Assembly (NCBI GenBank): GCA_905221605.1
Contig: CAJNDS010002731.1
Coordinates: forward strand, 105,001 to 169,000
Direction of reading: 5' to 3'
Origin: Symbiodinium natans
Taxonomy: Eukaryota > Sar > Dinophyceae > Suessiales > Symbiodiniaceae
DNA length: 64,000 bases
Positions within the stretch are counted from its first letter, which is position 1. Every line of letters begins with the position of its first letter. Shown piece after piece: positions 1,677 to 36,764 of this stretch. A model generated the notes under the pieces. The model saw only the letters and a program-made list of their open reading frames with translations, was not told the DNA's origin and did not search any database. The position numbers and the translations under genes are program-made.

Positions 1677-2370
1677 ATGGCCTACCGTGAACGAGACGTC
1701 GAGGCAAATGCAACATTCCTGAGATTTTTGATGCAGTTGTTGCATGGCCCGCATGGGTCCACGTGGTCCGCATAGTAGACGGGTTGAGGGGGACAGGAGG
1801 CATAGGAGGAGGCTGAAGAGGCTGAAGAAAACTGGGCTCAAGAGGCTCTCTGGAGCCACTCTCGGCTTTCTCTCCCTCTCTCTCCCTCTCTCTCTCTTCT
1901 GTCTCTCTCTCTCTCTTTCTTCTGTCTCCCTCTCTCTGTGTCTCTCTCTCGTTCCCTCTTTGGTAACGCTGTGCGTGATGAGGACGAGGACAGCGTCGGT
2001 CCTCCACACCCGGAGGATGGTGGCTACGACGTGGCCTGGCCCGCTGTGCGGGGTCCCAGAGCCTTTGCAAAGCCCTGCAAAGCCCTGCAGCAATGGACTC
2101 GTTTTTTCACGTCTCTTACATCACATTGTTGCATCCGGTGAGCAGAGCTCCCGCTGCCCTCTCCCTCTTCGCAAGCTGCCCTCACTGAGAGGAGAAGCCA
2201 GCCTTTCCCCATCACTTGTCAGTCATGCCTCTCACACGGTCTTCAAACTCAACGAAACTCCAACTGAGGGCGCTGATGAGCATGAGGAATTCTCTGCAGC
2301 AGTGGCCGAAACTGTCAATGACAAAGGGCCCCTCGGCCTCGTAGCCAAAGTTGCCTGCAGCGGCTGCGAG
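1677..2370 (+). CDS. Unidentified gene, 5' exons with candidate start codon
   Basis: An ATG at 1677 follows a pyrimidine-rich stretch ending in AG (about 1661-1672), the arrangement expected at a dinoflagellate trans-splice acceptor. The frame begins MAYRERDVEANATFLRFLMQ and stays open for about 32 codons. Two further exon-like stretches follow in the same orientation: an acidic one near 1969-2040 (contains AVRDEDEDSVGPPHPEDGG) and one near 2264-2340 (contains EGADEHEEFSAAVAETV). They are separated by a CT-rich stretch (about 1862-1965) that looks intronic. I recognise no family. These exons could be the 5' end of the ketosynthase gene that is clear from 3651, or a separate short gene; the sequence alone does not decide. 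Exon ends are approximate. Confidence 0.35.
1862..1965. repeat. CT-rich low-complexity tract
   Basis: About 100 bases of degenerate (CT)n on the + strand, lying between two exon-like stretches, so probably an intronic pyrimidine tract. Confidence 0.8.
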
Positions 2371-2809
2371 TGGCTTGCGTCTGGCTTGCGGAGCAGCGGC
2401 GAGCAAAGGTACTGCGTCATCAGCATGCCGCTCGCCGACGAGCCTCACTGGCCTGGAAGCCTGAGCAAATTCTGAAAAACCCTCGTGCCTGTGACTCGCT
2501 CTGTTACAGTAACTCCTCATCCTTAGAAAAATATCATGCCAGGGCAGTGCCGGAGATCGACGAAAGTGTGAAGTCGATGGAGTGGGGCGTTTTCCCGGCG
2601 GTGCCGGCCTCAGGAATTTTGGGGATAACTTGTCGTGGCGGTTATGGCGTTTCTGGGACCCCCCTTGGTTGGCCCCATGTGAGTATCGGACAAAACCTAT
2701 GGAAGAGGTAACCTTAATTAGAGGGGGCATATGGATTTGACAAGGTCGCTCTTGTACGAGAACCGATAGGGCCGACCCTAAACCGATACCCTCGGCAAGT
2801 ACTAAGGTT

Positions 2810-3386
2810 GTACTAAGAATCAACGAAAACCCAGCCGGCTCACGGGAACGTCGGTTCCAGCACGAAGCCTGTACTACAAATCGACGAAAACCCAGCCGGC
2901 TCACGGGAACGTCGGTTCCAGTATGAAGCTTGTACTACAAATCAACGAAAACCCAGGCAGCTCACGGGAAAGTCGGTTCCAGTACTGAGCTTGTACTAAG
3001 AATCAACGAAAACCCAGCCGGCTCACGGGAACGTCGGTTCCAGTACTAAGCTTGTACTACAAATCAATGAAAACCCAGCCAGCTCACGGGAACGTCGGTT
3101 CCAGTGCGAAGCCTGTCGTACAAATCGACGAAAACCCAGCCGGCTCACGGGAACGTCCGTTCCAGTACTGAGCTTGTACTACAAATCAACGAAACCCCAG
3201 CCATTCCAAGCTTGTACTACAAATCAACGAAAACCCAGCCGGCTCACGGGAACGTCGGTTCCAGTATGAAGCTTGTTCTACAAATCAACGAAAGCCCAGC
3301 CAGCTCACGGGAAAGTCGGTTCCAGTACTGAGCTTGAACTAAAAATCAACGAAAACCCAGCCGGCTCACGGGAACGTCGGTTCTAA
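2810..3386. repeat. 61-bp tandem repeat array (about 9.5 copies)
   Basis: A 61-bp unit with core ATCAACGAAAACCCAGCC is repeated with only a few substitutions per copy. The ATC of the core falls at 2819, 2880, 2941, 3002, 3063, 3124, 3185, 3223, 3284 and 3345, so the period is exactly 61 except for one copy cut to 38 bp. Related GATAGGGCCGACCCTA-type sequence flanks the array on both sides (about 2766 and 3581). There is no spacer diversity, so it is not a CRISPR array. It sits just 5' of the first clear ketosynthase exon. Confidence 0.93.
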
Positions 3387-3650
3387 ATTGTTGGTTCTTC
3401 CCCCAAACCCTGTAAAACGATAATCAAGAAAATAGAACGATAACCCTGGGAGGGATGAATAGATTTAACTCGGGGTTGTTATACAACCCCACCTGAAACT
3501 CCAAGTAGCTGGTACGCATTGCTGCATAACCGATAGGCGCCAGTCCTGAACAACTCCCGTAGATAATTCCTGCATGACCGATAGGGGCCGACCCTATTCC
3601 ACGCGGCATTCGGGACGTACTAGAGGTTTGGACCGCTACTCATGTGTTGA

Positions 3651-5524
3651 ATCCGGCTCTTCACTGAGGAGACGGAGGAGGAGTACTTGGGTGTGGAGGT
3701 CAGCGACTGCAAGGTTGCCTGGCTCCAGTACGTCGGCTACCAGGCGCCAACACCATAAAGTCCCCCACATTCTGGCGGCCCTAGCGGCCCTAGCGGCCCT
3801 AGCGGCCCTAGCAATCCTTCTCGTAGAAGTCGTAGCTTGTGCGTGGATGGGGAAAACTCGGTTGCAGGCGAGCAGAGGTTCAGGGCTCCGGATGTACGAC
3901 ATCGAGGAGATGGGACCCAACATGCAGATGGATCGCCTGGCGGGGGTCCCCTAGCAAAGGGGGAACCTTGCACACCATCTTGCTTTCCGCATCTTTGGCG
4001 CGTGGTGTTTTTTTTTTTTCCTTTGTTTTGCTGAGGCACCGCTGGAGCTCTGCGACAGAGCGCTGACCAACGTGGCAGCGCTGATGTGGACCGCCTCCTG
4101 GGCATGCGGCATGCGGCATGCGCTCCCTGCCCCTCCCCCGCCCACCCCCCCCCATGGCTCACTCCATGGCTCACTCCGTACCTCCGTTCCCCTTGCCGCC
4201 AAAGTGCTTTCTCTTGCCACTCCGCTTCCATGCCGCTATCAGTCAGCAGTTGGCCTGAGGCCATACACGCCCGAATACGAAGATGACAAGGCTTTTGCCG
4301 TGTTTCAGCGTACCAGCGGCCTGGCCTGGGCCCCTGACTCACGCCATCGTCTCTTGGTTTTGCATGTGCAGAGCGACCAGGTGAGATCCTCCATCAATCC
4401 TGGTGACGAAGGCACCGCCCTACCTTGCTTATCCTTGCTTCCTTTCTTTGCACACATCTTGTGGTTGTCGGTGCAGGCGTCAGGAGTCGGACCTTCGGGC
4501 AGGCACCCGTATGACTCCGTCTGACCTGTAGGGCGCTCGTATGCAATGGGCACGATGCGGAAGGACGAGCAGAGCGAGCTCGACACGCACATCGCCTTCG
4601 TAGATGGCAAGCCTGCCTGACCAGCTTAAATCCAGCGCCAGGTGCTGCAAATGGCTGAGCCCGGTGCTGATTTCACACGACGGCTGGGCATTCTGATCAC
4701 CCGAAAAACACAGAAAGAAACCGCGGGTGCAGCTTGATTTCAGAAACTCGGTACCTCTGCAGTGAAGCGCACCACATCGCCTGCCAGACGCCTTGCGATG
4801 ATTTTCCTGGTAGACAATGCGGAGGTCTTAGATAGCGGTGTTGCGTTGCGGCGTTGCGTTGCGGCGTTGCGTTGCGGCGTTGCCAAGTTGCGGCCTCAGC
4901 TTGGGCATTCGCTGCGACAGCTGAGGATGGTGGAGAACTGGAGCTTTTTCCAAATCCCACCGGCTACGACTACAACGAGGAGGGTTCTTTGGGACTGCTG
5001 CACAAGCTGCCAGAAAAGTGAGCAGTTTTCTCTCTCTCTCTCTTTTTTTTTTTTTTTTGGGGGGGGGGGGGGGTAGGGGATGCGCCGATTTTTTTCCGGG
5101 AGGTGACACTTCCCCTCTCGAAGAACAAGCTCATCGTCTTTCGATGCGATGCCCTGGGCCTGAACTACAGCTACCGCCCCAAAGGCCTTCAGTTTCAAGT
5201 CAGTTCCCCTGGTGGGCCCCCTTTTTTTGCGGTGCAACAAAGGCGGCAGAAGTGTAGCAGCGTGTGTCAGAAGTTGAGATGGAAGGTAAGCACATGGCCC
5301 TGCAGAGCTGGGTCCTGGACGTCCCATCCGCCTGGAAGGACAAGGAGGAGGCGCTGTGGAGTCTGCTTTGGAGACGTTGTTACACCGTCTGCGGACCTTT
5401 ATGTTGGGTTTCTTTGCGCCATTTTTCCTTGTTCATTTTGTTGGTGCTTTGCCCGTTTTGAGAGGCGCTGCGCATCCTGGACGGCCCGGAAGAGCCGGAG
5501 GGCCGGCGGAACAACGTCATGGGG
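3651..5524 (+). CDS. Type I-like polyketide synthase gene, N-terminal region exons
   Basis: Exon-like stretches lie at about 3651-3743 (ends ...VSDCKVAWLQYVGYQ, contains ETEEEYLGVEV), 3877-3945 (LRMYDIEEMGPNMQMDRLA), 4036-4092, 4237-4308, 4531-4610, 4921-5017, 5103-5198, 5291-5350 and 5465-5524. The last four join in frame: the 5103 exon (KNKLIVFRCDALGLNYSYRP), then 5291 (HMALQSWVLD), then 5465 (ALRILDGPEEPEGRRNNVMG). The EEEYLG element resembles the ExExGYLG motif described upstream of the KS domain in dinoflagellate single-domain polyketide synthases. The intron at 5351-5464 starts GC and repeats the exon-start bases GCGCTG. The first exon and true start are not identified; exons before 4900 are less certain than those after it. 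Confidence 0.7.
5028..5077. repeat. CT / poly-T / poly-G low-complexity tract in an intron
   Basis: (CT)n followed by a run of about 17 T and then about 15 G, inside the intron between the 4921 and 5103 exons. Confidence 0.8.
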
Positions 5525-5715
5525 GCCACTTGGGCTTCTGGTGCAAAAGGGCTGCTGACACTCCTCTTCTCTGTTTTTGGCGGGGTGCCGGTGTCAGACT
5601 GCAAAGAGAGCTCCTTTCTTCTTTTTGAGAGGAAAGCGCAGGGGGGAAGACGGTGCTCCAACGAAGTCTTCTTAGGCCTTCCCCTTTCCCTCCCCCCCCC
5701 CTTCAAGCAAAACAG

Positions 5716-8700
5716 GGTGCCGCTGAGGTGTGCACCCGGTACCCTGGACTCGGATTTGAAGTCCAGGCGGGCCACGGCGATTTTTGCTGGTCGCAGCACA
5801 AGCACGCAGCAGAGCCAATTCACGCTCATTGGTCTCTCCAGGCTTACTGGAACATGCTGGTGGCTGGCACAGACACAGAGGCCGGAAAGACCAGGGACGC
5901 CGCCCTTCGTTGCTGCAGCATCTTGGTCCCTGGGTACGGTAGCACCAGCTTTGCTTGAAGAGGTCAAAATTCCCATCCAGCGCTGGGACACAGACATCTA
6001 CTACAGGCTGGACAGGGGGGGTTGATTGATGCAGGCTCCAGTTCATCTCATTTACGTGGCCTTTCGAGTATTTCATGTTTCTGCAGCATGCAACAGTGGC
6101 CAGGGCCGAGCATACCATCGGCTTTTCGATGACCTGCCATGGAGCGAACCTGCAACAGGACAGCTGTTGTGCTCTTTCACCGTGAGCACATGCAGTCCGA
6201 CGGTTTTGGGCTGGTTTGGCTGTCACTGTAGCGCCTGGCTCTGCGCACCAGTCCGAAATCGAGATGTTCGACAACCAGTTCTTTGGCATCGAGCAGAGAG
6301 AGGCCCCGTTCGGGAGCCCGGGCAGGAGCACTGATGCAAAGACCTGCCTGCCAGGCTATCGAAATGGCTCCCTACATGCGAGTGATGTTAGAGGCTCCCC
6401 GGCCCCGTCTTTCTTCCAGTGGTTTTCGGGGTGTGCACTCTGCCGTGCTGCCGTGCATTCCGGTGTGCACTCTCCAGGTGGGCTATGAGGCCCTGCACAA
6501 CTCGGGCCACCGGCGGAGTGAGTTGAAGGGCTGGAAGTGCGGCGTCTTCTGTGGAGATTCCGGCCCGGTGCCCGGAGAGTGCCAGCACTGCCAGCACTGC
6601 CTCGTCGCTTTGAAAATCTGAAAGGTTCCGATTGGGACGGCATTCACTACACCGCCCCGAAGGACATGCCCCTCAAGTTCGGGGGCAGGCTGAGTGGGCT
6701 GAGTGCACTGAGGGGGGGTTGAGGGCTATGGCCGGTCCTGCGGTCCTCTGCGCTCCCATGCAGGGAGCGATCTGCAGCTGCAAATCGCCTGTCGCATATC
6801 TTCGGCTTGACTGGTCCAACAAGCACTGCAGAAACAGCTTGTCCCGACCTCACTTTGCGTCCGCCATTTCGGTGCTGGTGCATGCTGCCATGAGGAAGAA
6901 CTCGAGTGTGGGACTCTTTGCTGAGGCTCGTCAAGTCTGGTTGCCACAGGCATCGCACAGATGACGATGAGGTCGCATGACCGCAGTTTGCCAGAGGGGC
7001 CATCTGCTTGCACAACTGCCCGACGTGCGCGCGTGTGTCTTCGCATGCTGAAGGGAACTCTTTGAGCAACCCTTCAACCTACTGCAAGAACTCTTCGTCG
7101 TCAGTCCTTTTTGACTTGCACCCCTGAGGGCAAAGCTGGAGGACCAGCAGACGCCCAACATCACAACCGAGCTGAAGCACGGCCTTGTGGTGCGCAACGC
7201 GGGTGTTTGAGAGACCGCTCGAGAGAGTTCCACAATTGAGAAGTTCGTTTGCGCTATCTGAAGCTGATCCGAGATCGGGAGCAATCTGCTTTTGGGGCCC
7301 GGTGGCTACATCTCCTTGAGCGGCCCTGGCATGCTCACGCACCAGGGCCGGCGGCGGCCCCAGAGGGCGGCCTGTTTTTGCCAAATCCCCCTCCCCCCTC
7401 CCCCCCCCCCCTCAGCAGCCCCTCTCAGCCCACTCCGCGTACAAGGGGCGGGGTCCTCACTCTCTCTCGCATCTTCTTTTTTGCGCTCTCTCTAGCCCTC
7501 TCTCTCTCCCTCTCTCTGCTCTCTGGCTCTCTTCACTTCGCGCTGTGAGGTGCTTCACTTTTGACAATTCGGCGGATGGCTTCGCGCGAGGCGAGGGCGT
7601 GGGCTCCATCAAGCTCAAGGCTCCCGGATGCTCTCCCCTCGGGGCTTCGGCGGAGGGTGGGGGGTTGCTTTACAAAGAGGCTGTTTCGGGGGATTTTGAA
7701 GTCCGTTGCAATATGACGCTCTTTTGATAACTTGGCCTGAGGAGTGCAGTAGAGGAGGCGCCCCCCATACATGCTCGTGGAATGTCGGGAGGTCTGTGAG
7801 GACACAGTCGACGCAGCTGGCCGAGTTGCAATGCTCATCGGCTGCAGCGTCAACCAGGCCCAGCGCCTCAACGAAGAGTTCAAGCTCGCTTTGGGGTACA
7901 CGCTCTTCGCTTCTCTTCTCTTTGACTTCTTTCTCTCTCTCTGTCTCTGCCTCTCCCTCTCCCTCTCTCCACCTTGTCTTGCTTTTCAAGTCGCTCTCTC
8001 GTTCGCAGAGGTTGTTTTCTCCCTGACCACAGGACGGCCGCAGTGCATCCATGACGGCGCCGCACGGTCCGGGGCCCTCTCTCTCTTCGCCTTTGTGCTC
8101 TCTCAACATTCTCAACATGTGGGGAGTCGGCCACAGCATGTGGTGAGTGCCTTCCGGAGTTTTAGTTGGTTCTTGTAGCATGGTGCTCTTTGCTTACTGC
8201 TTTTTAAGCCTGTTGTCTTAGAGATCCTCGGAGCTTTCTTTCGTTTGTGTTTTTGCTCTGCTTCTCTCTACTTGTAGTGCCCTCTGACTGACTTGTGTCT
8301 GCGTGAGGACCATCGCAGCAGGAAGTCATTCGGCAGTCTATGCGCGAGGCATGCGCCGGGTGGCTTCTTGTTGACTGAATTTGCTTTGCTGGGTGCGTTC
8401 TAGCGGAGAGGCCGGCTTGTCGCCGAACAGTATCACCATTGCCGAGTGCCATGGAACAGGCTCCACCTGTGCGGCGCCTGTGTCTTTCCTGGTCGAATAA
8501 GCACTCGCAGAATTAGAAGCATCGCCGTGCCAGGGACGGCGCTTGGAGATCCGATCGAAATCGGTGCCCTGCGAGGGGCCTCTCGGCTGAGGAGCTAAGT
8601 CAGCCGAGCAACTGAGTAGTCGGAGATATGGCCGGTAACTTCCATAAACCTCCGTAAAACCTCTTAGCATCAGCACAAAGCCCCAAGGTCATGCGAGCAG

Positions 8701-9493
8701 ATCGCGCCCGCCCGATATTGAAGACGAGCTCTAAGACGAACCTGGGCCACTTGGAAGCGGGGGCCGGCATGGCAGGCGAGCCGGAGCCATTTTACCGCCA
8801 TGTACTGTCATGCACGTGGCAAAATGTGCAAGCGATGATGCTCGATCTGTGGACAGGCTTGATCAAATGCATCTGTATGTTGAACTACTCTTCTGGCGCC
8901 CCCAACATCCACCTTTTGGTGCTCAACCCGCACTTGGACGTGGCCGGCCAGGGCCCCGGAGGGGCACCCCGTGCTCTTTGAGAAGTCTCTCTCTCTGGGG
9001 CACTTCGTTGTGTTTTCAGATCGCTTTATTATTTGTCGGTTTGGTGCAGAGGTTATCCCGTGTACTTCGAGTCGGAACTGCTCGACTACGGTCGCGCGCC
9101 CAGAACATCTCCTTGAAGCTTCCCAGTTTTCCTGGAAGCCCCCCCCCCCCCCCCCTGCTTGGGAAGTCCCTGGCAAAGTGGCGCCCTCTGGAAGGCTACA
9201 ACAGCGGGCTCACTGGCGTGTCATCCTTCGGCTTCGGAGGTGCCAGCACTCAGCATTCACTCAGCATTCACCCAGCATTGACAGCATTGACTCGGCATCC
9301 TCACGGCATCACGGCATCCTCACGGCAACGCATGGTAACGGTACCTTTGTATGGTTAGGGGTTTTCTGACGCAGATCTGCAGATCGCACCGCCAGGCACC
9401 AACGCTCGTGCAGACGTGTGGGGCCACGCGACCAAGGGGCATCGCTACTGCATCACTGGCCCGCTGGAGTCTCTGACGCAGTTCCAAAGATAG
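5716..9493 (+). CDS. Beta-ketoacyl synthase (KS) domain of a dinoflagellate polyketide synthase, frameshifted
   Basis: KS domains join acyl units by decarboxylative condensation. Exons: 5716-5766, 5842-5880, 5963-6015, 6252-6302 (FDNQFFGIE), 6355-6393, 6478-6562 (GYEALHNSGH), 6625-6688, 6777-6908, 7274-7350, 7550-7619 (DNSADGFARGEG), 7801-7857, 8033-8073, 8404-8459 (ECHGTG, catalytic His), 8534-8577 (GDPIEIGALRG), 8688-8775 (KTNLGHLEAGAGMAG, second His), 8857-8946, 9052-9239 (GVSSFGFGG) and 9396-9493 (NARADVWGHATKGHRY, then TAG). Most junctions keep frame, with GC donors and AG|G acceptors. One exon after 6015 and one near 8100-8400 were not found. The active-site Cys codon at 6840-6842 is present, but the frame shifts directly after it, and a second shift lies near 9088. 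These may be assembly errors or pseudogene lesions. No acyltransferase or ACP follows directly, consistent with a single-domain enzyme. The product is unknown. Confidence 0.9.
6838..6848 (+). other. Frameshift at the KS active-site cysteine
   Basis: Upstream sequence reads the expected KS run ending T-A-C. Immediately after the Cys codon (6840-6842) the original frame loses KS-like sequence, while the next frame carries a typical continuation (SAISVLVHAAMRK, about 6855-6902). The length change is consistent with one missing base. I do not see an intron that would explain it. Confidence 0.75.
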
Positions 9494-27040: not shown

Positions 27041-27094
27041 GCTGGTGCACCCTTGGTGCACCCTGGGTGCACCAAGGGTGCACGAAGGGTGCAC
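27041..27094. repeat. Compound direct and inverted GGTGCACC repeat
   Basis: Five or more GTGCACC/GGTGCAC units alternate in orientation within about 55 bases, so the segment can pair with itself. It lies between the TPR 1 gene and the hydrolase gene; no coding role is seen. Confidence 0.7.
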
Positions 27095-27599
27095 CTGTCG
27101 CGAAGGACTCCTGCTTAGCCGGCTGCCTTCGCAAGCTCTGGCCATGGCGCCGCTTGGAAGGGCAGGTGCTGTCGAGCGATCCGCCAGACTTCTCCCTTCC
27201 AATGCGCCTGGGACACATTTTCGAGCTGGTCATCAACCCACATCAACTGGTTCGCACTTTACCTCTCATGAGCAGGTACTGGCTGGCACACCCGGGCCAC
27301 TGGCCGAGGACCGAAGTGGATGGGGCTGTGGGGCTGGTGGCTGGTGGCCGGCGCACATGAAGGTCGCGTTTTGCTTTGGCCAAGTGTGACCCCCCCCCCC
27401 CCCTCCCCCTTGTACTGCTGAGGAGGGTTGCGGAGAACTTGCCCAAGACCATCTGCAGTTGGCAGGCTGATGGGACGACGCAGTGCGAGGCCACGGACCA
27501 ATTTGGCAGCTCGGCTTGAGATTCGCATCCGAGTCAAATGCTATCACGAAGACTCATCACACCGGATCACAGGTGTGATCCTTGCTGTCACCGGTGCCT

Positions 27600-29174
27600 C
27601 AGAGGCGATCGCGAGTTGGAGGCGCCTGCAGACCTCTTCTACCTGCAAGGCACCCAGGATGTGAAAGTTAGCACAGAAAACCAGCCGGAATGCTGCTACG
27701 TGCTATTCCCCCTCCCCTCTCCCAGTGCACGTGCTTTTCCAAGGCACGGCACCATGGAGGGCATGGGCAATCGAGCATCCATCGATAGGTACGACAAGGC
27801 GCAGCCTGGAGCCTTGTGGAAGAGCCTTCTCGGGGCCTTGTCTCCCTCTCTCGCCCTCTCTCCTTTCTTAAAGGAGAAGTAACTCCCATTCTAGCAGAGT
27901 CACAGATTCGGGAGAAAGCTGTTAGTTGCGCTTTTTTCAAGTCATTGATCTTCGCCAGGAAGCGTTTCAGGCAAAGAGCTTCAACACACGGCACCAGATG
28001 ACCATTGTCACTGCCTTCACGTCAGTGCGCTGCATGCACTCAGTTTCCGAGAGTTGGTCCAAGAGATCGACGGGCGCTTGGGGGGAATGAAACGTGGCTT
28101 GAAATCCGGGGGTAGGTTGCGGGGTCCATACTTGTCCCCACACTTCCCCCCCCCCCCGATTATGGCGGAAGACAAGACGAATCACTCTGACTCCCCCCAC
28201 TCTTCTCCGTACACTCTCCACTCTTCCTCTCATTCCTCTCCTCCTTTGTACTGTTCCTCTCCTTCTTCCTCTCCCTTTTTTGCTTTGCACATATTCGCCA
28301 AGTCCGAGTCCGAGCTTCTCTAAGTCGCTAAGGCGTGCAGAGCCTACGCTCCTCTTTACCGCCAGGCTCAGACCTTTGAGAGTCTGTTGAAAAGAGAGCT
28401 TGTGCCTCTCGTTTTTGGCACAAAATTGTTTGGGCGCACTCAGAATTGCAATAGATGAGGGAGTGCGAGTACGCAGCGCGGCAGGCCGCAATGGGTGGTT
28501 CATGGGACTTGGCATACCAGGACCGGGGAGCCACTGCTTTTCTGAGCGAATCATGGCGGATCATGGGGCCGAAAGTTGCTACAAAAGGGGGGGATTTTGC
28601 GCCGAAAAATCCAAAAGTCTGGAGCCAGGATGTTCTTGCGGCCTTCGAGCAGTTTCTTTCCGAAGTCGGCAGCGAGCGGCCCATCGTTCTAGCAGGGCAT
28701 TCTCAAGGACGGAAGTAGTGTAGAGCGGTAGATTTTCTGCCCAGATTTCGCATGTCACTTCGCCGAAGGTTCTCTTCTGTTAAAATGAACCTTCTGTTGG
28801 AGGATCCATGCACATCGTCCGGCTCGTGAAGGAGCGCATCCAGAGTGACCCGGCGCTGCTCAGCCGAATCTGCGCAATCCACGCGCCGGGCATGGGCCGC
28901 TCGCCACAAAGGGGCTCCAGAAGCTGAGCGCATCTGCGCACTCCGTGGATGGTGTCTCGCACATGTACCGACCGAGATAATGAAAAACGGGTTGTCGACA
29001 TCCGGCACGGCACGAGAAAACTCCCTGCATGTGTGATTTCATAGTACTACAAAGTGCTCATCTTCAGAATCTTCAGGCCAGTGGATGGAGCCTTCGCCTC
29101 TGCCTGTGGACAAGGACCCTGTGCCTCCGCCGACAGCGCCCTGCGTGGCCATCTGGGCTGCGGCCTCTCCGCAG
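27600..29174 (+). CDS. DUF3089-family alpha/beta hydrolase
   Basis: DUF3089 proteins are lipase-like alpha/beta hydrolases of mostly unknown substrate. Exons: about 27614-27650 (PADLFYLQGTQD, like the family's A-D-V-F-Y-x-H start), 28333-28365 (ACRAYAPLYRQ, the family's Y-A-P-x-Y-R-Q signature), 28485-28520 (AAMGGSWDLAYQ), 28629-28707 (AAFEQFLSEVGSERPIVLAG then HSQ), 28803 to about 28880 (MHIVRLVKERIQSDPALLSR) and about 29081-29174 (PLPVDKDPVPPPTAPCVAIW). The 28629 and 28803 exons join to the nucleophile elbow G-H-S-Q-G. Junctions use GC, GA, GA and GT donors and AG|G acceptors. The exons between 27650 and 28333, the catalytic Asp/His and both termini are not resolved. The family is mainly bacterial, so acquisition by transfer followed by intron gain is possible. 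Confidence 0.8.
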
Positions 29175-29179
29175 GTCGC

Positions 29180-29634
29180 CCGGCTGCGGAGTTCTCTCAA
29201 AATTAAGAGAAGACCTTCAAGTAAAAAGGAGGCGCAGAGTCGGAATGATGTACAAGATCCTCCCACCGTTGTCGTGTGTTGTTGGCTAGCCATTGCACCC
29301 TGAAGCATAGCTCCCAAACCCGAAGCTCTAAAACCCTAAAACCTTGACGTTGCTCTTGATTCGTCAAAAGGTGCATGGGTAGCTGACATGCCGAAGAGGC
29401 TTGTTGAATGAAGCGAAACAAATGAGTTTGCTAAGTTAGGGGGTGGTAGACGAAACGGGTCAGGAGCCACTATGTCAGGCAGCTTCAAGCCCGCGCACTT
29501 CCACATCCGATCGCTCCAAGCCACAACTTTCCACATGCCCACTTTTCTACCCCGGAACGTGGAAGTGTGAAAAGGTCTATGGTTGAGAAGTGGGAAAAGT
29601 GGAAGTGTGAATATTGGGGTGGGGGTGGGGGCGA
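29180..29634. other. 3' flank of the hydrolase gene
   Basis: No further exon recognised. CCCTAAA-like sequence starts to appear (about 29306-29345), and a GT/GGGGT-rich stretch leads directly into the left inverted repeat. Confidence 0.5.
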
Positions 29635-29686
29635 GCATATATATATATATGGTACCCCCCCCCCCAAAGATCTAGGTATTTTCATG
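29635..29686 (+). repeat. Left terminal inverted repeat
   Basis: GC(AT)n, GGTA, a C run, then AAAGATCTAGGTATTTTCATG. It matches the reverse complement of 32873-32926 apart from a one-base change in GGTA/GCTA and a different homopolymer length. Confidence 0.9.
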
Positions 29687-29822
29687 GTTTTGGGATCTGT
29701 TTTAGGGTTTAAGGGTTGGGGGTGGGGGGCTAGCTAAACATGTAAAACTCAATATGGACATGTGAATCTTGATATGTGCGAGTCTTCATATGTGCGTGGT
29801 CGTCTTTTCAAATTGTGAGCCC

Positions 29823-30190
29823 GATTGAAAACGATTGAAACGATTGAAATTCAATCGGAGACCGGATTGAAGATTGAAGATTGAAGATTCCCGGAAACCT
29901 TTTTTCTGGGAATCTTCAATCTTCAATCTTCAATCCTGCCCCCGATTGAATTTCAATCGTTTCAATCGTTTTTCAATCGGGCCCCCGATTGAAAAACGAT
30001 TGAAACGATTGAAATTCAATCGGAGACCGGATTAAAGATTGAAGATTGAAGATTCCCGGAAACCTTTTTTCTGGGAATCTTCAATCTTCAATCTTCAATC
30101 CGGCCCCCGATTGAATTTCAATCGTTTCAATCGTTTTTCAATCGGGCCCCCGATTGACTTTCAATCGTTTCAATCGTTTTTCAATCGGGT
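29823..30190. repeat. Two tandem long hairpin units of a GATTGAA motif
   Basis: Each unit reads from CCCGATTGAAAACGATTG through AATCGG, ACCGGATTGAAGATTGAA and GATTCCCGG, to a short AAACCTTTTTT loop, and back through the reverse complement. The first spans about 29820-29980 and the second about 29982-30145; part of a further arm ends at about 30190. Stems are nearly perfect over more than 60 bases. Confidence 0.92.
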
Positions 30191-30335
30191 TCACGTCTTG
30201 TAAAGTGTCAGAATTAGCTTTCGTGACGTCGCTCAAGATCACGTGTCTTCGCAGACATTCCACTCGAAATATACTTGACCATTTGTGTTTGTAATACTCG
30301 CAATGGCTCGCATCCCAGTGGCTGGCTCAGTCTTA

Positions 30336-30690
30336 TGGTTTTTATTGGTTTTTGCGGTGTTTCGGGAGCGTGGGTCCCACGCTAAAAATCGGTTTTACCG
30401 ATGTTTTTGAAAGCCTACCTTCAAAATAACATCGGTAAAACCAATGTTTTTGAAAGCCTACCTTCAAAAAACATAGGTAAAACCAATGTTATTGAAGGCC
30501 TACCTCTAAAAAACATCAGTAAAACCGATGTTTCGTGAGCCCATGCTCCCAAAACATCGCAAAAAAACAATAAAAAAAAACATGTCAAAAACCATGATTT
30601 TCGAAACTAGTGGCTGGGGTGGCCGGCCGAGTAGTTTCAGAAACCATAGTTTTTATGTTTCTTATTGGTTTTTGCGGTGTTTCGGGATCG
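30336..30690. repeat. Imperfect inverted repeat around GGTGTTTCGGGA and direct AACATCGGTAAAACC units
   Basis: TTTTTGCGGTGTTTCGGGAG at about 30350 is mirrored by CTCCCAAAACATCGCAAAAA at about 30546. Between them lie three related copies of ACATCGGTAAAACCAATGTT-like sequence. A second copy of the left arm occurs at about 30661-30697. Confidence 0.8.
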
Positions 30691-32820
30691 TGGGCTAAAC
30701 CTTTAAGCCCTGTAGGCTATACGGTTAAGGTTTAAAGGTTTAGGGTTGAAAAGTTCAACAGTCAGCCCATAGAGTTTAAACCTTAAGGGTCCTAAACGCT
30801 TAACCTTTAAACCCTATAGGCCATAGGGTTAAGGTTGAAAGGCTTAGGGTTTAAGATTTTGGCATTAAAACACAAGCCCCTAGAGCTTAAGCCTTAAGGG
30901 TTTAAGGTTTCAGCATTGAAACGATAACCCTAAGCCCTTTAGGGTCAGAACCTTGAAGCCCTGTAGGGCTCTAAAACGTTAACAGGGTTTAACCCTATAG
31001 GCGTTGAATGTATAAATGCCCAGACATTACGCTCTCTTTAACCTTTCAGCCCTATAGGGTCTAAAGGCTTAGGGTATTTCTTAAGCCCTGAGGGTTTAAA
31101 ACCTTAAGCCCTCAAGGTGGGCTTGGGTTTAAATGCCTAAATCTTGAATCCTAAACCTTTAAACCTTAACCCTATAGCCTATAGGGTTTAAAGGTTAAGC
31201 GTTTAGGCCCCTTAGGGTCTGAACTCTATAGGCTTACTTTTAAAACCTAAACCCTTAAACCTTGACCCTATAGCCTATAGGGTCTAAAGGTTAAGCGTTT
31301 AGGCCCCTTAAGGTTAAGGGTCCTAAACGCTTAACCTTTAAACCCTATAGGCCATAGGGTTAAGGTTGAAAGGCTTAGGGTTTAAGATTTTGGCATTAAA
31401 ACACAACCCCTAGAGCTTAAGCCTTAAGGGTTTAAGGTTTCAGCATTGAAACGATAACCCTAAGCCCTTTAGGGTCAGAACCTTGAAGCCCTGTAGGGCT
31501 CTAAAACGTTAACAGGGTTTAACCCTATAGGCGTTGAATGTATAAATGCCCAGACATTACGCTCTCTTTAACCTTTCAGCCCTATAGGGTCTAAAGGCTT
31601 AGGGTATTTCTTAAGCCCTGAGGGTTTAAAACCTTAAGCCCTCAAGGTGGGCTTGGGTTTAAATGCCTAAATCTTGAATCCTAAACCTTTAAACCTTAAC
31701 CCTATAGCCTATAGGGTTTAAAGGTTAAGCGTTTAGGCCCCTTAGGGTCTGAACTCTATAGGCTTACTTTTAAAACCTAAACCCTTAAACCTTGACCCTA
31801 TAGCCTATAGGGTCTAAAGGTTAAGCGTTTAGGCCCCTTAAGGTTAAGGGTCCTAAACGCTTAACCTTTAAACCCTATAGGCCATAGGGTTAAGGTTGAA
31901 AGGCTTAGGGTTTAAGATTTTGGCATTAAAACACAAGCCCATAGAGCTTAAACCTTAAGGGGGGTCCAAAGGCTTAGGGTATTTCTTAAGCCCTGAGGGT
32001 TTAAAACCTTAAGCCCTCAAGGTGGGCTTGGGTTTAAATGCCTAAATCTTGAATCCTAAACCTTTAAACCTTAACCCTATAGCCTATAGGGTTTAAAGGT
32101 TAAGCGTTTAGGCCCCTTAGGGTCTGAACTCTATAGGCTTACTTTTAAAACCTAAACCCTTAAACCTTGACCCTATAGCCTATAGGGTCTAAAGGTTAAG
32201 CGTTTAGGCCCCTTAAGGTTAAGGGTCCTAAACGCTTAACCTTTAAACCCTATAGGCCATAGGGTTAAGGTTGAAAGGCTTAGGGTTTAAGATTTTGGCA
32301 TTAAAACACAAGCCCATAGAGCTTAAACCTTAAGGGGGGTCCAAAGGCTTAGGGTATTTCTTAAGCCCTGAGGGTTTAAAACCCTAAACCCTTAAGGTGG
32401 GCTTGGGTTTAAATGCCTAAATCTTGAATCCTAAACCTTTAAACCTTAACCCTATAGCCTATAGGGTTTAAAGGTTAAGCGTTTAGGCCCCTTAGGGTCT
32501 GAACTCTATAGACTTACTTTTAAAGCAAAAACCCTTCAACCTTGACCCTATAGCCTATAGGGTCTAAAGGTTAAAGCGTTTAGGCCCCTTAAGGCTTTAA
32601 CTCTATGGGCCTGCTATTGAACTTAAACCCTAAACCATTAAACCTTAGCCCTATAGCCTATAGGGCTTAAAGGTTAAGTGTTTAGGCCCTGTACGCTAAG
32701 ATTTACACTCGATGGGCTTAGGTTTAAATGCCTAAATCTTAAGGCCTAAACCTTTTTAAGCCTTAACCCAAAAGGGTTTTACGGTTAAGGGTTCAGGTTT
32801 AAATGGCGGTTACATCTTCA
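30690..32820. repeat. Higher-order array of degenerate TTTAGGG/CCCTAAA-like repeats
   Basis: The whole stretch is built of variants of TTTAAGGTTTAGGG and its complement in both orientations. A longer unit repeats: the string AAGGGTCCTAAACGCTTAACC begins at 30785, 31316, 31846 and 32221, giving periods of about 531, 530 and 375 bp (the last a unit with an internal deletion). The copies are nearly identical. Dinoflagellate telomeres are reported to use TTTAGGG, so this is telomere-like interstitial sequence, not a perfect telomere. Confidence 0.9.
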
Positions 32821-32872
32821 ACTTCACATCGCCTCCGGGCCCATGCAAGTATTCAACTTGATATCGCTAAAT

Positions 32873-32926
32873 CATGAAAATACCTAGATCTTTGGGGGGG
32901 GGGGGGTAGCATATATATATATATGC
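32873..32926 (-). repeat. Right terminal inverted repeat
   Basis: Reverse complement of the left repeat: CATGAAAATACCTAGATCTTT, a G run, TAGC, then (AT)n ending in GC at 32926. Confidence 0.9.
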
Positions 32927-34614
32927 ATAATATGATGACACATATAAAAATAGATAGATAGCTAGATAGCTAGATAGATAGATACACATATGTCATGGAG
33001 TTTGGAGGTCTAGAGTCGATGAGGTGGTTCGCGCTGCACGCAGATCTGTTCGACGTGCTGTGCAGAAATGTCTGGAAGCTGTGGTGACACATATGTCTAT
33101 ACATTTATGTATGCATGGAAAGAATACCTTTGCATTTGCTTGGTCGCAAAGAAGAATTATATCTTCTGGTGAGTGGCCACCGTTGGAGAAAAGTTGTTTT
33201 ACGAAAAGCTCGGCCGTGGATTTGCTTGGTCTGTTGTTCGTATTATTACACATTGATTGTGCGCTCTATTTTGGTGACTGGGGCCCTTCATTCATCATTC
33301 ATCTGCTCTCACCATTTTGTTCAAGTGTGTATTTATACCCCTCTACCTTGAAACCCACAAGCCCAAACCCCTAAAGTCCTAAAGCGTAAGCCCCCAAAAA
33401 TCCTAAGCTCCTAAACCCTAAAGGCCCTAAAGAAGCAGGGTGCAGGGTGCAGCCCCAGGCTGATCGGAAATGGACCTTGATCGGCTGCCTTGGCCGCACA
33501 TGGCTTCAGATGCTTGGGTTGCCCAAAATTGTTTGCCGTAATGCTACCACTCCGGATTATGGTATTTTGAGGGTACAAGTGGGGTTAGCCCTATATCTTA
33601 GGAAATACTCATCTCTTCTGAGCCTTTCTCAAGGACCCGCACACGCATCCGAACTACTGGCTCAGAGGGTCGACGTAGTTCGTGTATAGCTTTGGCAGAG
33701 GGGGTGGGGCGTCAGAGCCCCCTTTTTTTCTCATCTGGGACATGTTTCGACCATGCCTGCGACTGCAAATGAGCTCTGTGTGCAGCGGAAGGTGTTCGGG
33801 GTAAGTTGTGGAGGGAAGAACATGTCAACATCTTGGAGCAACTAAATGTAGCTGAACATCAAGAAACCACATGGCAGCCTAAGTCTGACAAGGAGAATGC
33901 TCTCAGGCTCTCACGCGCTCAGGCTCTCATGCTCTCACACTCTCACGCTCTGACGCTCTCACCCTCTGACGCTCTCACGCTCTCATGCTCTCACGCTCTC
34001 CTTTCTCCTGCTTTCGCATTCGCTCACTCACTCACTCACTCTCATACTTTCTCGCTCTCTCGCTCTCTCATTCTCTCACTCTCTCGCACTCTCTCGCTCG
34101 GTTTCCCTCCCACTCTGCCTCCCTCCACTTCTTTACTGATCAAACATGTTCGAGGTTTCATGTCGCGCGGGCGTGGGTTCACCGATTTCGCCAATCCCTG
34201 CGCTTGGACGAAGGGTGAGCACTTGGGTGTTCTGCTGCCAGATGAAGAGACCAAGCTACCAGTGCTGCACAGGTGCAGACGTTGTTGTGGGAAGTTTGGA
34301 TATGCTGTTGCAAGTGTTCTATTGGTCGTGTTGGGAGGAGATTGGCGTTGTTTCCCTGAAAGGGGCTTGGTCCAACGAGCAGAAGTCGTCGAGGGCCTTC
34401 TTCGCGTGCACCCCTGCCCAGCTGCAGAGAGCAAACTGACGCAGATGCACATGGGACATCATGACCAGGGGTTGGAGAAACTCTAGTGCTCCTCAGATCA
34501 CACTATGTGCGGGGCATATTCAGGGCCCAGCCTTTGAAAGCTGCTGTTGCGTGACATATGTCATATCATCAAGTAGTACCAGCCGCATTCTCAACTTCGA
34601 ATAGACCGTCAAAG
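32927..34614. other. Spacer with microsatellites
   Basis: Holds a (GATA/GCTA)n tract at 32951-32984, CCCTAAA-like sequence at about 33350-33430 and a degenerate CTCACGCTCT-type array at about 33902-34115. One possible exon lies near 33806-33905 (REEHVNILEQLNVAEHQETT), but it cannot be tied to a family. Otherwise nothing is recognised. Confidence 0.45.
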
Positions 34615-34697
34615 GGCACGAGTGCTCGCTGGAGGACTACCACGCTTATGACGTACATCTCTTTTGGGCCAACGTGCGCGAGCGCGTGAAGCAACAG
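34615..34697 (+). CDS. Unidentified exon
   Basis: An AG|G acceptor at 34614 is followed by an open stretch reading ECSLEDYHAYDVHLFWANVR, then ERVKQQ up to a GC donor after 34697. The composition is protein-like and the borders fit the local splice pattern. No family recognised. It may be a 5' exon of the TPR gene that follows. Confidence 0.45.

Positions 34698-36689: not shown

Positions 36690-36764
<75 letters not shown>

Follow-up and report, generated by a model that had tools for sequence, protein, structure and literature searches.

The window, a 64,000-nucleotide stretch of Symbiodinium natans DNA, corresponds to C2419:105001-169000 of the source genome (759,417,921 bases in 2543 contigs). 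Within it, between two (AT)7 tracts, lies a non-coding mobile block of 3260 bp (29651-32910). An earlier note on this DNA had described an AT-rich interior in a GC-rich locus, with no 60-codon open frame inside; the GC content of the element is indeed 41.7%, compared with 51.9-63.0% in 1-kb bins outside 29001-34000, and its longest ATG frame has 56 codons (62 if read from stop to stop). A six-frame Pfam scan of 7001-51999, with stops read through, revealed no transposase or organelle gene, and DUF3089 was the sole match over the curated cut-off in that range. Rfam gave no match at gathering score; the 51 matches below gathering scores were mostly miRNA models fitting generic hairpins. Organelle DNA as the origin of the block was rejected, as neither the Pfam scan of 7001-51999 found an organelle gene nor Rfam a match at gathering score. 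A DUF7425 match in the interior (~32432-32530; E 6e-4, 20.4 bits against a cut-off of 27) was taken as chance.

The DUF3089 match belongs to a hydrolase-like gene. Two exons lie upstream of the element and a match to the C-terminus lies beyond it on the same strand (Table 1), which places the element inside the span of the gene and probably within one of its introns. A short intron separates the two upstream exons and can be read as GA...AG, and GA donors are known for dinoflagellates. No match was found for the middle ~125 residues of the protein, which may mean that the gene is broken. The best plasmid-collection match of the gene (28126-34679) was a Sphingomonas protein (52.5% over the two joined exons), and a bacterial origin is perhaps indicated. 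The presumed intron around the element contains, beyond the element itself, a small patch of degenerate telomere-like words (33201-33600). Elsewhere, the window contains 74 consecutive G (36690-36763), a possible assembly weak point; a 61-bp tandem repeat array with nested 99/160-bp higher order (2798-3383); and a self-complementary 11-bp tandem repeat, GGTGCACCAAG (27044-27095).

Table 1. Features of the element and of the gene around it (window coordinates)
Feature	Positions	Strand	Remark
Exon of DUF3089 hydrolase-like gene, ending at GHSQG, upstream of element	28626..28709	+	
Next exon of DUF3089 hydrolase-like gene	28802..28891	+	joint E 4.8e-9 for both exons
(AT)7 tract, left edge: target microsatellite / target-site duplication	29637..29650	.	
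Left terminal inverted repeat: GGTA + C11 + AAAGATCTAGGTATTTTCATG + weaker extension	29651..29696	+	GG-type end, one per element in 22/22 (21 fetched + window copy)
Transposon proper, 3260 bp, non-coding	29651..32910	+	
GATTGAA/TTCAATC hairpin module, 165-bp palindromic unit x2	29820..30190	.	within first 560 bp, 98-99% to three coding copies
Second palindromic module, 42-bp repeats, inverted GGTTTTTGCGGTGTTTCGGGA-type arms on flanks	30333..30700	.	
Telomere-like palindromic higher-order array: 530-, then 375-bp units, ~7-8 bp internal period	30721..32810	.	
Right terminal inverted repeat, read inward: GCTA + C13 + AAAGATCTAGGTATTTTCATG	32863..32910	-	
(AT)7 tract, right edge: target microsatellite / target-site duplication	32911..32924	.	
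Probable C-terminal exon of DUF3089 hydrolase-like gene, 15 aa, 73% identical	34635..34679	+	E 0.004

Both ends of the block show the same order, (AT)7, G[G/C]TA, C11/C13 and AAAGATCTAGGTATTTTCATG. Alignment of 29635-29696 with 32863-32926 as inverted ends scored 97, whereas 500 dinucleotide shuffles reached 27 at most, and the end core occurs twice in the whole window with 0 occurrences expected; the near-perfect inverted ends with (AT)n and C-run segments reported from the letters are thus real. In each of 22 elements (the window copy and 21 fetched from the genome, described below) one end reads GGTAC(C)n and the other GCTAC(C)n, and positions 29651 and 32910, inside the (AT)n tracts, were therefore taken as the limits of the element.

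The earlier note had proposed either a non-autonomous mobile element or a captured telomeric/subtelomeric fragment, to be checked by a search of the source genome for the end sequence. An end query against the 759-Mb genome returned 222 candidates, and all 40 that were scored matched at 91-100%. The end core, with up to 2 mismatches allowed, was found at 66 forward and 64 reverse places, while the reversed control gave 0 and 0. Opposed end pairs were present in 20 of 20 fetched regions, which yielded 21 elements of 1.4-6.4 kb. Among the 100 listed ends of the 130, 72 could be joined into 36 pairs spaced by no more than 12 kb, which left 28 single; 10 of these 28 fall in fetched regions, where the partner is present, and the other 18 lie outside fetched regions. 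Many copies with paired ends and variable interiors are what the mobile-element proposal called for. An assembly artefact or an ordinary chance repeat might be suspected from homopolymers in repeat-rich DNA, which are error-prone, and from tandem units that are partly identical; with the same ends in the same order on many contigs with unrelated flanks, and a control pattern at 0, such an origin is exceedingly improbable.

Several copies are notable for their size or arrangement. One is a 489-bp miniature with both ends (L061, C2:727900-729100, positions 338-826), in which 411 bp exactly match the right part of L030a, an element of a second subfamily. Another is 9.3 kb long with both ends (L062, C450:29900-39450); none of the 20 longest matches with the window copy, a coding copy or the second subfamily covers its middle ~7.5 kb (about 1754-9228), which may be cargo of another kind or a nested insertion. 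At a third locus (L011, C2180:312150-322100), a coding element of 6.4 kb and a non-coding element of 3.1 kb are arranged tail to tail and separated by only 62 bp of AT-rich DNA (6598-6659).

Insertion sites are strongly biased in sequence. At least 10 bp of pure alternating (AT)n adjoin 51 of 63 distinct ends, compared with 12 of 63,800 window positions outside element ends. For copies within (AT)n the length of the target duplication is ambiguous. A copy outside (AT)n, on C635, carries AAACATTA on each side, exactly 8 bp, and represents the sole unambiguous target duplication; the flanks of a copy inside (ATT)n, on C494, are compatible with an 8-bp duplication. Flanks match over at least 8 bp in 18 of the 21 elements from L011-L030, and over fewer in the remaining three (L015, 4 bp; L016, 0; L020, 6 bp).

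The interior of the window copy is occupied by two hairpin modules and a telomere-like array (Table 1). Folding was compared with that of shuffled sequence and gave z = -28 for 29820-30190 and z = -13 for 30333-30700, both as DNA, and z = -19 for 30735-31265 as RNA, values that place the long palindromes noticed earlier far beyond chance. The array forms a ladder of 530- and 375-bp units whose overlapping parts are identical or nearly so. Words within one mismatch of TTTAGGG and CCCTAAA are enriched in 30701-32820 (49 and 57 matches, where 60 shuffles gave means of 16.5 and 19.2). The exact words TTTAGGG and CCCTAAA show no enrichment in the same segment (3 and 2, against 2.0 and 2.5 in 60 shuffles), and both orientations are mixed, unlike an interstitial telomere, for which exact TTTAGGG would be enriched in one orientation. 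The description of a higher-order array of TTTAGGG-like repeats therefore stands for the array and its one-mismatch words but not for exact words, which are at chance level, nor for a single orientation.

These data bear on the possibility that a telomeric or subtelomeric fragment was captured and later gained inverted ends. A roughly threefold enrichment of one-mismatch TTTAGGG words with a period of ~7-8 bp would fit such an origin; the chance-level exact words and the mixed orientations argue against it, as does the distribution of the array. The telomere-like module was present in 19 of 19 non-coding elements compared, in one of them (L023a) with 244 of 590 bp only. A 201-bp piece of the array gave 236 matches genome-wide, and those listed fell into 39 clusters, merged by hand. 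Of these clusters of listed matches, 37 have a 0-mismatch end no more than 4 kb away and one (C1269) has 1-mismatch ends, so that 38 of 39 are near a listed end; for the last (C1761), none of the 100 listed ends of the 130 is nearby. The array is thus cargo of the elements rather than a captured telomere, since all 19 non-coding elements carry it, and the captured-fragment reading is very improbable and largely refuted.

Copies of this cargo are closely similar. The telomere-like array is ~99% alike within the subfamily of the window copy, and mean divergence of the module is 0.6% among 12 copies of that subfamily (full module), 0.9% among six copies of the second subfamily and 4.5% between the two. 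The right-hand 95 bp, C run included, diverge by more than the array, with means of 2.8% in one non-coding subfamily and 2.9% in the other. The number of near-identical units (at least 98% in a probe test) varies: four in the window copy and in L019a, three in three copies, two in seven and none in L023a.

Three sister copies (L011a, L014a and L021a) of 6.2-6.4 kb have both family ends and no array; two ORFs, P0001 (668-684 aa) and P0002 (455 aa), take its place. With the window copy they have two stretches in common: ~680 bp at the left end, of which the first 507-560 bp match at 98-99%, and a right-hand stretch of 90 bp matching at 91-92%. Among themselves they are 98.3-99.7% alike over the longest aligned stretches. 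Both ORFs are open at four loci (C70, C2180, C605 and C1783, for the last of which the left end alone is known). Fragments of the 455-aa ORF with 77-95% identity lie near a family end at C713:266065-267125, and are perhaps an older, broken coding copy.

Relatives of P0002 are widespread in the genome (146 matches, down to ~30% identity). In an alignment of 13 proteins, P0002 and 12 relatives, C109, C112, C132 and C137 (CxxC..C..C), D228 and D334 are invariant and D395 is nearly so. From these motifs, we take the residues to be a zinc ribbon followed by a DDD transposase of the IS1595/Merlin kind. Domain matches were sub-threshold, in one of the 13 aligned proteins each (DDE_Tnp_IS1595, E 0.14; Zn_ribbon_IS1595, E 0.36), and neither P0002 nor P0001 had a match in Pfam (E <= 1) or NCBIfam (E <= 10). 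PDB searches with the family proteins gave nothing significant, and a single-sequence AlphaFold model of P0002 was unusable (pLDDT 34). About 25 residues of P0002 are missing from the 12 relatives and are perhaps an unspliced intron. Searches of viral, phage, plasmid and bacterial contig collections with end and interior patterns, the block, P0001 and P0002 found no relatives, which says little, as those collections contain bacterial and viral DNA. P0002 is a candidate transposase, and the sister ORFs may mobilize the window copy and the other short copies.

P0001 has a Walker A motif (GCAGVGKTP), a DD Walker B and a conserved Asn, all kept in nine of nine aligned proteins (P0001 and eight relatives). 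A PDB profile search with P0001 returned insignificant matches only, several of which overlap the P-loop with AAA+ chains (best E 0.035). With 93 of 156 P0002 candidates scored, a P0002-type gene was found 0.3-1.3 kb downstream on the same strand at 34 of 62 P0001-type loci, and none beside the other 28. The 34 paired loci are not independent, because they include four copies of the window family and several others are near-copies of each other. The pairing persists to ~24% P0001 identity, which suggests an old two-gene unit. ATP-using partners act in target choice of Tn7/IS21-type bacterial elements, and P0001 may likewise be a P-loop partner in transposition. If so, the family would be a eukaryotic DDE transposon with two components. 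A bolder proposal is that of a separate eukaryotic two-gene transposon lineage, in which a zinc-ribbon DDD transposase would have its own P-loop ATPase (AAA+/SF3-like) to help choose AT-rich microsatellite targets, while short copies parasitize it and breed palindromic satellite; we regard this as tentative and rather less than an even chance.

The enzyme might instead come from another, unseen autonomous family, Mutator-like for example, with the two-gene copies being carriers of cargo. Targeting of TA microsatellites is known, in the accounts consulted, for MuTAnT, SaTar and Ac-mMITE (PMC4486113, PMC5907723, PMC8449440), and P0002 lacks a significant family match, both of which would suit a foreign enzyme. 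The duplications of plant Mutator-like elements are 9 or 10 bp, however, and the clear case here is 8 bp; moreover, both ends and ~680 bp are common to coding and short copies, and the three acidic residues and the zinc ribbon are kept in P0002 and its relatives. A foreign enzyme is therefore unlikely.

We conclude that the block very probably belongs to a young family of DNA transposons that are non-autonomous and move by cut-and-paste, presumably mobilized through their shared ends by the transposase of sister copies. Paired ends at unrelated sites, a target duplication and coding relatives with the same ends are together the marks of a class II non-autonomous element with terminal inverted repeats. 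The transposase from the 6.2-6.4 kb copies would act in trans and recognize the ends through G[G/C]TA, the C run and AAAGATCTAGGTATTTTC. DNA between the ends would be mobilized by cut-and-paste and inserted into AT-rich 8-mers, with (AT)n microsatellites preferred, and insertion would duplicate 8 bp of the target. The palindromic telomere-like satellite, whose units may be gained and lost, would have taken the place of the two coding genes in the short copies. The family may still be active. Dinoflagellate genomes are rich in unclassified repeats; linking a telomere-like block full of palindromes to a transposon family whose ends, target and coding partner are defined makes the source of such repeats testable.

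No paper listed by searches of the open-licence literature was recognized as describing the window element, and neither the end sequence nor an ISXO2-type dinoflagellate transposase was found in PMC text. Several described systems are nevertheless similar in part. Introners of dinoflagellates give rise to introns, with splice sites that they either bring along or co-opt (PMC9860276, PMC11453091). The window copy resembles them as an element with terminal inverted repeats in a dinoflagellate intron, the latter judged from the exons around it, and differs in length, being 3.3 kb compared with ~115 bp for the S. microadriaticum example cited there. Tetris, a foldback transposon of Drosophila virilis, is described in the part of its report used here as an apparently non-autonomous element with terminal inverted repeats and with tandem repeats able to expand into satellite (PMC4079207). 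The window family is likewise non-autonomous, with terminal inverted repeats, and carries tandem repeats; by that description the repeats of Tetris lie in its terminal inverted repeats, and both host and repeat are different.

Merlin and IS1595-type elements are also among the closest known systems (PMC8101967). Sy.m_F1 of Symbiodinium microadriaticum, of 2.57 kb, is by its description similar to the window family in its 8-bp duplication, a left end beginning with GG, inverted ends of ~50 bp, recent copies and complex inverted tandem repeats inside, and a zinc ribbon followed by acidic residues is an arrangement shared with IS1595 transposases (PMC8101967). Differences from Merlin are a right end of GC rather than GG, the zinc ribbon, the P-loop gene and the (AT)n preference (PMC8101967). 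Merlin duplications are 8-9 bp, and the one unambiguous copy, on C635, has 8 bp. Merlin termini are GG (CC at the 3' end), whereas all 22 elements have GG at the left and GC at the right. Merlins so far described in that account have no IS1595-type zinc ribbon (PMC8101967), whereas the four cysteines are invariant in 13 of 13 proteins here, a ribbon read by motif with a library match of E 0.36 in one of the 13. Because one of its termini departs from the Merlin rule and its proteins carry a cysteine motif absent from described Merlins, the family was not filed as Merlin, and its membership is unproven.

In target choice the nearest parallels are MuTAnT, SaTar/Micron and Ac-mMITE, plant Mutator-like families that, in the sections of the reports drawn on here, insert mainly into (TA)n with 9/10-bp duplications, MuTAnT being linked to a mudrA-like transposase (PMC4486113, PMC5907723, PMC8449440). 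The window family shares with them (TA)n targets, the preference of the Mutator-like families being matched at 51 of 63 distinct ends, as well as inverted ends and a duplication revealed by rarer copies outside microsatellites; the tail-to-tail pair at L011 recalls the neighbouring elements linked by a microsatellite in SaTar and Ac-mMITE (PMC4486113, PMC5907723, PMC8449440). It differs from them in its 8-bp duplication (one copy, on C635) compared with 9/10 bp and in its dinoflagellate rather than plant host, and the same sections make no mention of a telomere-like satellite like that of the window family (PMC4486113, PMC5907723, PMC8449440). On the best reading, the family would work like these microsatellite-targeting MITEs, while being Merlin-like in the size of its duplication and in its internal repeats.
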